Assembly (NCBI GenBank): GCA_902627745.1
Contig: CACOKG010000002.1
Span: 1 to 62,623, forward strand
Direction of reading: 5' to 3'
From: an uncultured Pelagibacteraceae bacterium
GTDB taxonomy: Bacteria > Pseudomonadota > Alphaproteobacteria > Pelagibacterales > Pelagibacteraceae
DNA length: 62,623 bases
Part shown: in pieces, positions 5,664-9,284 of the stretch
Position numbering within the stretch: the stretch's first letter is position 1
Layout: every line of letters starts with the position of its first letter
The notes under the pieces: model-generated
Told to the model about the DNA's origin: nothing
The model's input: the letters and a program-made list of their open reading frames with translations, nothing else
The model's database searches: none
Program-made: the position numbers and the translations under genes

Positions 5664-6548
5664 ATGACAAAAATAAGTGGGATATATGCAGCTTCAATGT
5701 CAGTTCTGAACTCTGATTTAAGCTTAAATATTGAAAAAACCATATCTCATGCTGAAAACTTAGTTGATCAAGGTTGTCATGGTACAGCAATATTTGGAAG
5801 CACTGGACAAGCACAATTAATTCCTATTGTTGAAAAGATTAAATTACTAAATCATCTTTCAGAAAGTAAATACAAAGAAAAACACTTAATTGGGACAGGT
5901 TTGAATTCTTTAAATGAAACAATTAATTTAATGAAAATTTCAGTTTCTCTAAACTTTAAAAAATTTTTAATTATGCCACCAGCTTATTATAAATATCAAG
6001 ATAAGGATGTAATAAACTTTTACACAAAAATTATTGATGCAGTACCAGAGTCTAAAATTATACTTTATAATTTTGAAAAATTGTGCGGATATAAATTTAG
6101 TATTGAATGTGTAGAAAAATTAGTTGAAAAATTTCCTGATCAAATTGTAGGTGTAAAGGATAGTTCTTACAATTTATTTGAAAAGTTAAAGTTGGAAAAT
6201 TTTTCAGTTATGCCAGGTTCAGAGTCAAAATTACTTAAAGGATTAGAAAATGGTTGTTCGGGTATTATTACTGCAACTTGCAATGCTACATCTCAATTAG
6301 CTCGAAAAGTTTACGATGATTTTCAAGAAAAAAAAGATCATTCTTTAAACCAAAAATTAGTTAATGTCAGAAATGCTTTTGAAAAATATAATTTAATTTC
6401 AGCTCTTCATACTTTGTTTTCAAAAGAGAACAAAATTTATGGAAATCTTTTACCACCTTTAAGTTTACTTAGCGAGGTTGATGAGAAAAATCTTTTGCAG
6501 AGTTTAAAAGATTTAAATTTTGAAACAAAATCACAATTGGCAGCTTGA
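5664..6548 (+). CDS. dihydrodipicolinate synthase/N-acetylneuraminate lyase family aldolase
   Basis: GSTGQAQLIPIVEK, ILYNFEK and VGVKDSS (Schiff-base Lys) motifs of the DHDPS/NAL superfamily. Confidence 0.8.
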   Translation: MTKISGIYAASMSVLNSDLSLNIEKTISHAENLVDQGCHGTAIFGSTGQAQLIPIVEKIKLLNHLSESKYKEKHLIGTGLNSLNETINLMKISVSLNFKKFLIMPPAYYKYQDKDVINFYTKIIDAVPESKIILYNFEKLCGYKFSIECVEKLVEKFPDQIVGVKDSSYNLFEKLKLENFSVMPGSESKLLKGLENGCSGIITATCNATSQLARKVYDDFQEKKDHSLNQKLVNVRNAFEKYNLISALHTLFSKENKIYGNLLPPLSLLSEVDEKNLLQSLKDLNFETKSQLAA

Positions 6549-6549
6549 G

Positions 6550-7737
6550 ATGTATTTAGCGAGATTTCTTAATAAAGTATTTAAAAAAGGAGGGTTTATC
6601 TTAACGGATGCTAACTCCAAGGATTATATTATTGGTCAGCCAACCGACGATCCTATTAAATTAAAAATTCTAAATAAGAAACTTCATTATAAATTACTAT
6701 TCCATCCAGATCTTTACTTTGGGGAGGCATACACAAATGGAGATATAGTAATCGAAAATGGATCTCTAACAGATTTTTTAGATCTAGCATTGATGAATAT
6801 TGGAAGAAAGGAGTTAAACATTTTTAGTTATCTATTAAATAAATTTAGAGGGTCATATAGATATCTTACAAATTTCAACTTTATCAAAAAATCGAAAATG
6901 AATGTTTCACATCATTATGATATCAAAGACGATCTCTATGATTTGTTTTTAGATCCAAAAAGACAATATTCGTGTGCTTATTTTAAAAATGAAAATGATA
7001 GCCTTGAAATTGCACAGAATAATAAGATTCAACATATAATTAAAAAATTAAATATTAAACCTGACCAAAAAGTTTTAGATATAGGATGTGGCTGGGGATC
7101 GTTAGCTATTGATATTGCTAAAAATGCCAAGTGCGAAGTTACAGGAATAACTCTATCAGAAAATCAACTCAACTATTGCAATCAAAAAGCAAAAGAGATG
7201 AATTTACAGAACCAAGTAAAATTTAAACTGATGGATTATAGAGAGCTTGATGAGAAATTTGATAGAATAGTGAGTGTTGGCATGTTCGAACATGTTGGAA
7301 GGAAATTTTATAAAAAATTTTTTAATCAAATTGAAAAATTGATGAAAAATGATGGTGTTTCATTAATTCACACTATTGGGTCTGTTAACCCGCCAAGAGA
7401 TCCTCATCCTTGGATTACTAAATATATTTTTCCTGGTGGTTATACACCAAGCTTAAGTGAAGTAACGAATCCTATTGAAAAAGCCGGTTTAATTGTAACC
7501 GACATTGAAGTTTTAAGACTTCATTATGCTCATACTTTAAGACACTGGAAAGAAAACTGTTTAAAAAATAAAGATAAAATAATCCAAATGTTTGATGAAA
7601 AATTTTTTAGAATGTGGGAGTTTTATCTCGCTGGTTGTGAAATGGCATTTAAGTGGGGTGATCAAGTTGTTTATCAATTTCAACTCACTAAAAATTATAG
7701 ATCAACACCTGTGACTAGAGACTATATTTATCAATAA
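6550..7737 (+). CDS. cfa: cyclopropane-fatty-acyl-phospholipid synthase family SAM methyltransferase
   Basis: VLDIGCGWGSLAIDIAK, VSHHYDIKDDLYDLFLD, YSCAYF motifs. ATG at 6550 avoids the 29-nt overlap implied by the ORF-track start at 6520. Confidence 0.88.
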   Translation: MYLARFLNKVFKKGGFILTDANSKDYIIGQPTDDPIKLKILNKKLHYKLLFHPDLYFGEAYTNGDIVIENGSLTDFLDLALMNIGRKELNIFSYLLNKFRGSYRYLTNFNFIKKSKMNVSHHYDIKDDLYDLFLDPKRQYSCAYFKNENDSLEIAQNNKIQHIIKKLNIKPDQKVLDIGCGWGSLAIDIAKNAKCEVTGITLSENQLNYCNQKAKEMNLQNQVKFKLMDYRELDEKFDRIVSVGMFEHVGRKFYKKFFNQIEKLMKNDGVSLIHTIGSVNPPRDPHPWITKYIFPGGYTPSLSEVTNPIEKAGLIVTDIEVLRLHYAHTLRHWKENCLKNKDKIIQMFDEKFFRMWEFYLAGCEMAFKWGDQVVYQFQLTKNYRSTPVTRDYIYQ

Positions 7738-7766: not shown

Positions 7767-8960
7767 ATGAAAAAAAAACAAAAAAAATCAAAAAAAAAGA
7801 GAAAAGTATTAAAAAAAACCAAATCCTATAAATTTCGAAGAAAAGGTAAAAAAACTAAAAGGGTTGTTAAAAGATTAAAAAAAAAAAAAATTATCAAAAA
7901 AAGGAAAAATAAGGTTAAAAAATTAAAAAAAACTAATTATTTAAAACAAATTAAAACCCAAAACGAAAGTATAGTTTTAAAATTAGTTAAATTACAACTA
8001 TCCCTGAAACCTCAATTCAATTTAAAATTTAATTTTAGTTTAGAAAAACATATTCAAGGTTTTTTTGACAAAATTTCAGAGACAATTTCAAGTTATAAAG
8101 TTTTAAAACGTGATGAAAAAAGAAGAATTAAGATAGAAAAAATTGAAAGAGAGAGGGCAGAAAAAATTGAGTTGGCTAAACAAAAAGAGGAAGAACAAGC
8201 TCTCAGAGTTAAACTAAAAGAACAAACACTTAAAGAAGAAGCTAGATTGGAAAAACAACGAGTAAAAGATATAAAATTATTCCTAAGAAAAGAACAAGCA
8301 CTTTTGAGAATTGAGCAAGCTGAAAAACAAAAACAGTTTTTAAAACAATTAAGACTAGATAAACAAATTGAAAAATTCAGAATTAGAGAAGTCAAGGAAC
8401 TAGAAAAACTTGAGAAAATTTCTTTAAAAGAAAAAAGAGAAGACTATGCAGGTTTACAAGAAAGAATTGATAAACTTAAGGAAAAATATCGATTACTTCG
8501 AGATCAAAAAATTAAAGAAAGGGTTGAAGCATTAGGAGTTAAACTTCAAGGTGATGAAGATAGAGAAACCTTATTAGAAAAAGAAAAAGAATATACTTTA
8601 GCAAGACAAAAAATTGAATTTGCATTAGAAAGTTTTTACAGAAGTGCAAGTAGCCTAGTATTTCAGTTAAATAAAAGACATATTACCCGCGACATGTCTA
8701 TTTTTCGTTGTATAGACAGAAGATTTGAAACAGGTGAAGTTTTTATTAAATGGGATGAATCACAAGATGATGAATGGTTATTATTAATTTATATTAAAAA
8801 TAATTCTCCAGATGAAGGGATTGTTATTGAAGATAAAACTAATCCTGAAAAAAATCTTTCTCATGAGTTTAGAAATGTAGATATTTTCAAAGCCTCAGAT
8901 ACAATGGTAGACTCTTTAACGCAACTCATTGCTAGGAAAAGAGCCAAAAAAAATAATTAA
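7767..8960 (+). CDS. extremely lysine-rich N-terminus plus charged coiled coil plus small C-terminal domain; unknown function
   Basis: 397-aa ORF; 38 of the first 65 residues are K/R; heptad-like E/K/R/L region around aa 100-270; compact C-terminal domain (SLVFQLNKRHITRDMSIFRCIDRRFETGEVFIKWDESQDDEWLLLIYIK). Confidence 0.75.
   Translation: MKKKQKKSKKKRKVLKKTKSYKFRRKGKKTKRVVKRLKKKKIIKKRKNKVKKLKKTNYLKQIKTQNESIVLKLVKLQLSLKPQFNLKFNFSLEKHIQGFFDKISETISSYKVLKRDEKRRIKIEKIERERAEKIELAKQKEEEQALRVKLKEQTLKEEARLEKQRVKDIKLFLRKEQALLRIEQAEKQKQFLKQLRLDKQIEKFRIREVKELEKLEKISLKEKREDYAGLQERIDKLKEKYRLLRDQKIKERVEALGVKLQGDEDRETLLEKEKEYTLARQKIEFALESFYRSASSLVFQLNKRHITRDMSIFRCIDRRFETGEVFIKWDESQDDEWLLLIYIKNNSPDEGIVIEDKTNPEKNLSHEFRNVDIFKASDTMVDSLTQLIARKRAKKNN
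7877..7890 (+). repeat. A14 homopolymer inside the lysine-rich CDS
   Basis: Direct reading: agatt-AAAAAAAAAAAAAA-ttatc. Confidence 0.9.
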
Positions 8961-8990
8961 ACATTTATATTAAATTAGGTATTATCTCTA

Positions 8991-9284
8991 ATGATTATAG
9001 GATCTGCCTTTCTAATAATTTTATATTTAATTTTCAGATATATTATTGCTTGGATCACATATTTTAATAATTTGGACCCAAGACTTGGTGATAGTACATG
9101 GCGGTTTACGTATGATTATCCAGTAGTTGGTGAGAGAGATATCTCTGATTTGGATGATAAGGACTTTGTCAGATTAAGAAGAAAAAAGAATAAAATTATT
9201 TTATTAATGTACTCAATAGTCTTAGTGATGTTTGTATCTTCTATGTCTCTATTAAGTAAATTTTTATTATTTTTTACAAGTTAG
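8991..9284 (+). CDS. small two-TM membrane protein, unknown function
   Basis: 97 aa, N- and C-terminal hydrophobic segments flanking a basic/acidic middle; same strand, 30 nt after the lysine-rich ORF. Confidence 0.65.
   Translation: MIIGSAFLIILYLIFRYIIAWITYFNNLDPRLGDSTWRFTYDYPVVGERDISDLDDKDFVRLRRKKNKIILLMYSIVLVMFVSSMSLLSKFLLFFTS

Follow-up and report, generated by a model that had tools for sequence, protein, structure and literature searches.

The window analysed here is a stretch of 62,623 nt from a SAR11 (Pelagibacteraceae) genome, the nearest named relatives of which are uncultured Pelagibacteraceae. Few cells on Earth are as abundant as SAR11 bacteria, the genomes of which are stripped to essentials. 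Two open reading frames follow each other on one strand of the window (Table 1), and both are real, as the first-pass annotation had listed them. The first encodes a protein of 397 aa, referred to here as the tailed protein, that is built from a lysine-rich N-terminal tail, a long predicted helix, and a C-terminal domain. The three layers evolve at different rates. Over its whole length the protein has a net charge of +52 and a pI of 10.1, and neither a hydrophobic signal nor a TM segment is seen in its sequence. One copy of the gene was found in the window's genome, the completeness of which is about 61%.

Table 1. Features of the locus and of related loci (window positions unless a locus label is given).
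Feature	Position	Strand	Basis or remark
Cyclopropane-fatty-acid synthase gene	6520..7737	+	CMAS Pfam match, synteny; 29 nt upstream of the tailed gene
397-aa lysine-tailed protein, Pelagibacteraceae core gene	7767..8960	+	ORF and genome profile counts
Polycationic tail, residues 1-66 (38 K/R, 0 D/E, pI 12)	7767..7964	+	Composition counts
Linker, residues 67-89, moderate conservation	7965..8033	+	Alignments
Long charged helical rod, residues 90-255	8034..8531	+	AlphaFold2 model, periodicity tests, alignment
C-terminal domain, residues 266-397: helix, five-strand meander, helix (predicted)	8562..8957	+	
97-aa two-TM protein, separate SAR11 family	8991..9284	+	30 nt after the tailed gene
Glyoxylate-shunt island: TPR protein, XRE-type regulator, small ORF, isocitrate lyase, TerB/DnaJ-like protein	L133:8187-12437 and equivalents		
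105-bp Lys-rich tail tandem repeat, genus g281	L214:8107-8599		4.7 copies, 95%

The most distinctive part of the protein is its tail. The first reading had counted 38 K/R in residues 1-65, and this count is borne out, with D and E both absent. K and R together make up 14.2% of residues over the ORFs of the window, and the second-best 65-residue stretch in the window contains 20 of them. Related loci supply 1,400 ORFs of 100 aa or more for comparison: the richest 65-mer in a non-member reaches 23, while the 65-mers of members hold 26-42 and nearly all of them at least 31. A content of 38 in 65 is far from chance, even for a lysine-rich genome. Complete members from six genera carry 31-42 K/R and 0-2 D/E in the first 65 residues, with a median of about one Ala and one Pro each. 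The tail extends over about 47-172 residues in these members and is 30-43% identical among them. Its dN/dS is 0.33, a figure that, like the other values given for this gene, comes from 16 or 17 close strains chosen by similarity. In the same close strains, single-base changes at tail K/R codons mostly keep the charge, with K-K (141 pair counts), K-R (101), and R-R (66) as against K-N (58) and Q-R (53). The composition of the tail is kept; its sequence and length drift. In the complete genome G570, of genus g281, the tail consists of a tandem repeat with a lysine-rich unit of 35 aa (the copies are 95% identical; Table 1), and the repeat locus L214 is possibly length-variable in populations. A run of 14 A at positions 7877-7890, the longest homopolymer of the window, lies inside the tail coding region; together with further A-runs of 8-9 at 7770-7818, it is a possible site of polymerase slippage.

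The middle of the protein is predicted by AlphaFold2 to form helices at residues 90-222 and 227-255, with pLDDT mostly 84-92 up to residue 210; the alignments behind the structure predictions are shallow (43-48 close sequences). This part was initially described as charged and heptad-like. The charge is there, as 50% of the residues are charged along a long predicted helix, but the heptads are not: Fourier power at 3.5 residues does not exceed that of shuffled sequences (p 0.25), and neither does a windowed count of a/d positions (p 0.85-0.98). With both measures at shuffle level, membership among coiled-coil proteins was rejected. The helix has a dN/dS of 0.07 in close strains and spans 130-199 aligned residues in different genera. 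Because it is half charged, has no heptad signal, and differs in length among genera, the helix looks more like a spacer than like a classical coiled coil.

The C-terminal domain, of about 125 aa, is the most constrained layer. Its dN/dS in close strains is 0.018, which is below every whole-gene value measured for the neighbouring genes (0.035-0.42), and 13 of its residues are invariant across six genera. Identity ranges from 73 to 98% across the genus and falls to 33-39% in comparison with the most distant genera. The last 130 residues have a pI of 6.1. The fold model is of modest confidence (pLDDT 67, pTM 0.60). That the domain belongs to no recognisable family, as first noted, is upheld by the profile and structure searches, which gave no clear match to a characterised family: searches of the tailed protein against Pfam, NCBIfam, PHROGs, and PADLOC returned only sub-threshold or non-reproduced matches, and the domain has no significant match in the PDB by sequence or by fold (Foldseek). 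Two candidates were considered and dropped. The match of the C-terminal domain to TIGR03847/DUF3090, a family of Actinobacteria, is weak and sub-threshold (E 0.0025; 17.6 bits against a cut-off of 117.25, and 15.3 against 27), was seen in none of 10 divergent members, and is treated as chance. A viral fold match to Gp643 of phage G (Foldseek, E 0.0026, TM 0.46) was set aside because it is based on the model with a pLDDT of 67.

Synonymous divergence (pS) is 0.09-0.11 for the tailed gene and its three downstream neighbours, as against 0.24-0.46 upstream. These low values were not taken for a selective sweep because the loci were chosen by similarity of the tailed gene itself.

The tailed protein is a core gene of Pelagibacteraceae. 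Profile searches detect it in 134 of the 137 high-quality Pelagibacteraceae genomes and, over Pelagibacterales as a whole, in 141 of 197 sampled genomes; these 141 belong to one family (f1) and are spread over six genera. The genomes are samples, some of them fragmentary, so that "absent" or "on another contig" in a single genome may reflect an assembly gap. Among high-quality Pelagibacterales genomes 134 of 149 have the protein, and 12 of the 15 that do not belong to another family (f2). A profile made from one genus misses the sister genera and was therefore widened with diverged versions found by synteny, after which a restriction to one genus was withdrawn. In the sister genus, diverged copies sit at the syntenic position, marked by a prolyl-oligopeptidase-like gene, DnaJ-TM, and an Hsp20 block; their first 65 residues contain 39-40 K/R, and their C-terminal motifs can still be recognised. 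A search of 385 genomes sampled from the class gave no full-domain match outside Pelagibacteraceae; the best hits there have E-values no lower than 0.002 and align over 24-47 residues, several of them in frames with stops. A viral origin was also considered and dropped, as no relative was confirmed in IMG/VR. Literature on SAR11 lysine-rich or nucleoid proteins and on locus tags SAR11_016x-018x contained nothing about the tailed gene. Essentially all good genomes of the family thus keep a 1.2-kb gene that has no name, domain entry, or known relative, and the C-terminal domain of its product is more constrained than neighbouring metabolic genes.

As a family the tailed protein is new, but the principle of its tail is already known. 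AlgP of Pseudomonas aeruginosa has a net charge of +55 and a Lys-rich tail that binds DNA, and it associates with polyP granules (PMC9239181). Like AlgP, the SAR11 protein combines a helical part with a long disordered Lys-rich tail and carries a similar charge (+52). In contrast, the tail of AlgP is C-terminal and made of KPAA repeats, whereas that of the SAR11 protein is N-terminal and poor in Ala and Pro; the latter also carries a conserved C-terminal domain that has no match by sequence, and homology between the two was not found. The phasin PhaF shares the bipartite plan and an H1-like tail, which in PhaF is a DNA anchor. Unlike PhaF, the SAR11 protein has no detected phasin domain, its tail sits at the opposite end, and the neighbourhood read around its gene contains no PHA genes. 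Hc2 of Chlamydia is a Lys-rich DNA binder that varies in length by 36-aa repeats (PMC2848022). The repeats of Hc2/HctB and of Hc2-like proteins in Chlamydia and Bordetella resemble the 35-aa repeats of the G570 tail, but Hc2 has neither the long helix of the SAR11 protein nor its strongly conserved C-terminal domain.

AlgP, PhaF, and Hc2 have in common a long Lys tail that lacks acidic residues, is free in sequence, and changes length through repeats, and the SAR11 tail is likewise long, Lys-rich, acidic-free, and variable in length. The original proposal of an H1/PhaF-type polycationic tail on an unrecognised domain, which proves to be conserved, is supported to this extent, and by analogy such a tail may bind nucleic acid. 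The tailed protein looks able to work like H1-tailed proteins; by sequence it is placed in none of their families because two further traits were tested and not found, namely a Lys/Ala/Pro composition (KPAA or similar repeats) and a phasin domain (Pfam, NCBIfam, and PHROG profiles).

Based on these properties, the tailed protein is best read as a cytoplasmic, Pelagibacteraceae-specific architectural protein that binds polyanions through an H1-like tail mounted on a new domain, and we give this reading a probability of about one half. Its backing comes from family-wide presence, a charge that is kept while the sequence is free, constraint on the C-terminal domain, and the predicted helix. The protein would act as follows. 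The disordered Lys-rich tail would bind polyanions whatever their sequence, with chromosomal DNA the likeliest ligand and RNA a possible one, and the long charged helix would keep the tail apart from the protein body. The C-terminal domain, with its predicted order of helix, five strands, and helix, would be the specific part that oligomerizes or docks on a partner, and the protein could thereby bridge or tether nucleic acid. DNA is ranked as the most likely ligand and RNA as the second because the tail shares the traits of AlgP, PhaF, and Hc2, of which AlgP and Hc2 bind DNA; judged by composition alone, the ligand could also be RNA, polyphosphate, or acidic lipid. That the ligand is DNA, that the protein bridges, and that it docks on a partner are inferences. 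Specificity probably lies in the C-terminal domain, yet oligomerization or docking is a guess because the fold model is modest and no solved structure matched it.

A bolder version of the architectural reading, offered tentatively, is that the protein is a SAR11-specific chromatin organiser in which a linker-histone-like tail on the new domain would shape or anchor the compact nucleoid of the most abundant marine bacteria. This version adds that the protein would date back to the base of Pelagibacteraceae and have been retained in every lineage examined. HU/IHF-family proteins are present in SAR11 already, at three loci in every single-contig SAR11 genome tested, so that a further nucleoid protein is not required and this one would be an addition. 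If the tail does bind DNA, SAR11, a group in which chromosome organization is little studied, would have a lineage-specific nucleoid protein.

Polycationic disordered tails serve both RNA and DNA. The tailed protein might therefore be associated with RNA or the ribosome, its tail binding rRNA or mRNA in the way of ribosomal-protein extensions and its C-terminal domain binding a ribosomal or RNA-decay partner, and the conserved helix and C-terminal domain do suggest a specific protein partner. This alternative is nevertheless doubtful, as the 35-aa tandem repeat tail resembles that of a DNA binder, Hc2, and the neighbourhoods read show no ribosomal or RNA-processing genes linked to the tailed gene, linkage being weak evidence in these genomes. 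It is unlikely that the protein organizes polyphosphate or storage granules in the manner of AlgP, with the tail holding polyP (and DNA) and the remainder positioning the granules. The plan of AlgP and its association with such granules (PMC9239181) would fit, but no phasin domain is matched in Pfam and the neighbours of the gene are not granule genes.

The upstream neighbour raises the possibility of a peripheral membrane protein that, like MARCKS, would place its tail on anionic phospholipid and be co-expressed with cyclopropane-fatty-acid synthase. The synthase gene directly adjoins the tailed gene in three genera (g1, g282, and g283); in g5, g280, g281, and G035, however, it is missing or replaced and the tailed gene stays. 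For this reason the synthase says little about function, and the membrane reading is improbable. Finally, A-runs of 8-14 nt within the tail and its weakly conserved sequence could make the tail a functionless by-product of AT-rich mutation (poly-A codons), but this is very improbable given that the next best of about 1,400 ORFs falls far short (23 K/R against 31-42), that D/E are nearly excluded, that K/R codon changes among close strains mostly keep the charge, and that the tail dN/dS of 0.33 is below 1.

It was also proposed in the first-pass annotation that the tailed protein and the 97-aa protein form a conserved two-gene module that tethers the nucleoid or ribosome to the membrane, and that missing linkage in relatives would speak against this. 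The two-TM nature of the 97-aa protein is confirmed, with hydrophobic segments at about 1-26 and 67-96. The loop between them, with basic and acidic residues in equal number (9 each), may be cytoplasmic according to the positive-inside rule; W37, R38, D42, Y43, and others are invariant in it across the family. Nothing above cut-off was found for this protein in Pfam, NCBIfam, PHROG, or PADLOC. Family members occur in g1, g282, and one g283 genome (for example, L136:8593-8886 and L141:8634-8930).

The close spacing in the window's lineage favours a tether, but the linkage is derived and not kept. In the 109 Pelagibacter genomes with both genes, they are adjacent in 65, 1.3-4.3 kb apart in 31, and on different contigs or more than 100 kb apart in 13. 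They are linked in none of the 17 genomes of g282 and g283 that have both, and the 97-aa gene was not detected in 8 genomes of g5, g280, and g281 (4 of them single-contig) that carry the tailed protein. In G510 a broken 97-aa gene adjoins an intact tailed gene; this apparent pseudogene (G510:C3:37734-38020; stops, split match) may also be an assembly error. The tether is thus unsupported and very unlikely.

In several Pelagibacter lineages an XRE-type regulator and isocitrate lyase sit between the two genes. They are part of a glyoxylate-shunt island (Table 1), the site of which corresponds to the gap between window positions 8960 and 8991 and which is missing in the window's lineage. In G009 and G034 the 97-aa gene sits after malic enzyme instead. 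In a quick tree, in which deeper forks are open, the adjacent state is nested among the lineages with the isocitrate lyase island and needs one or two changes, so that gene loss is the simplest explanation; this suggests that adjacency arose by loss of the island. The 97-aa protein beside the tailed gene is an accidental neighbour, and the two do not make up a conserved unit. In two close relatives of the window (L072 and L109), the DCC-tldD-pmbA segment downstream of the pair is missing and both genes are kept.
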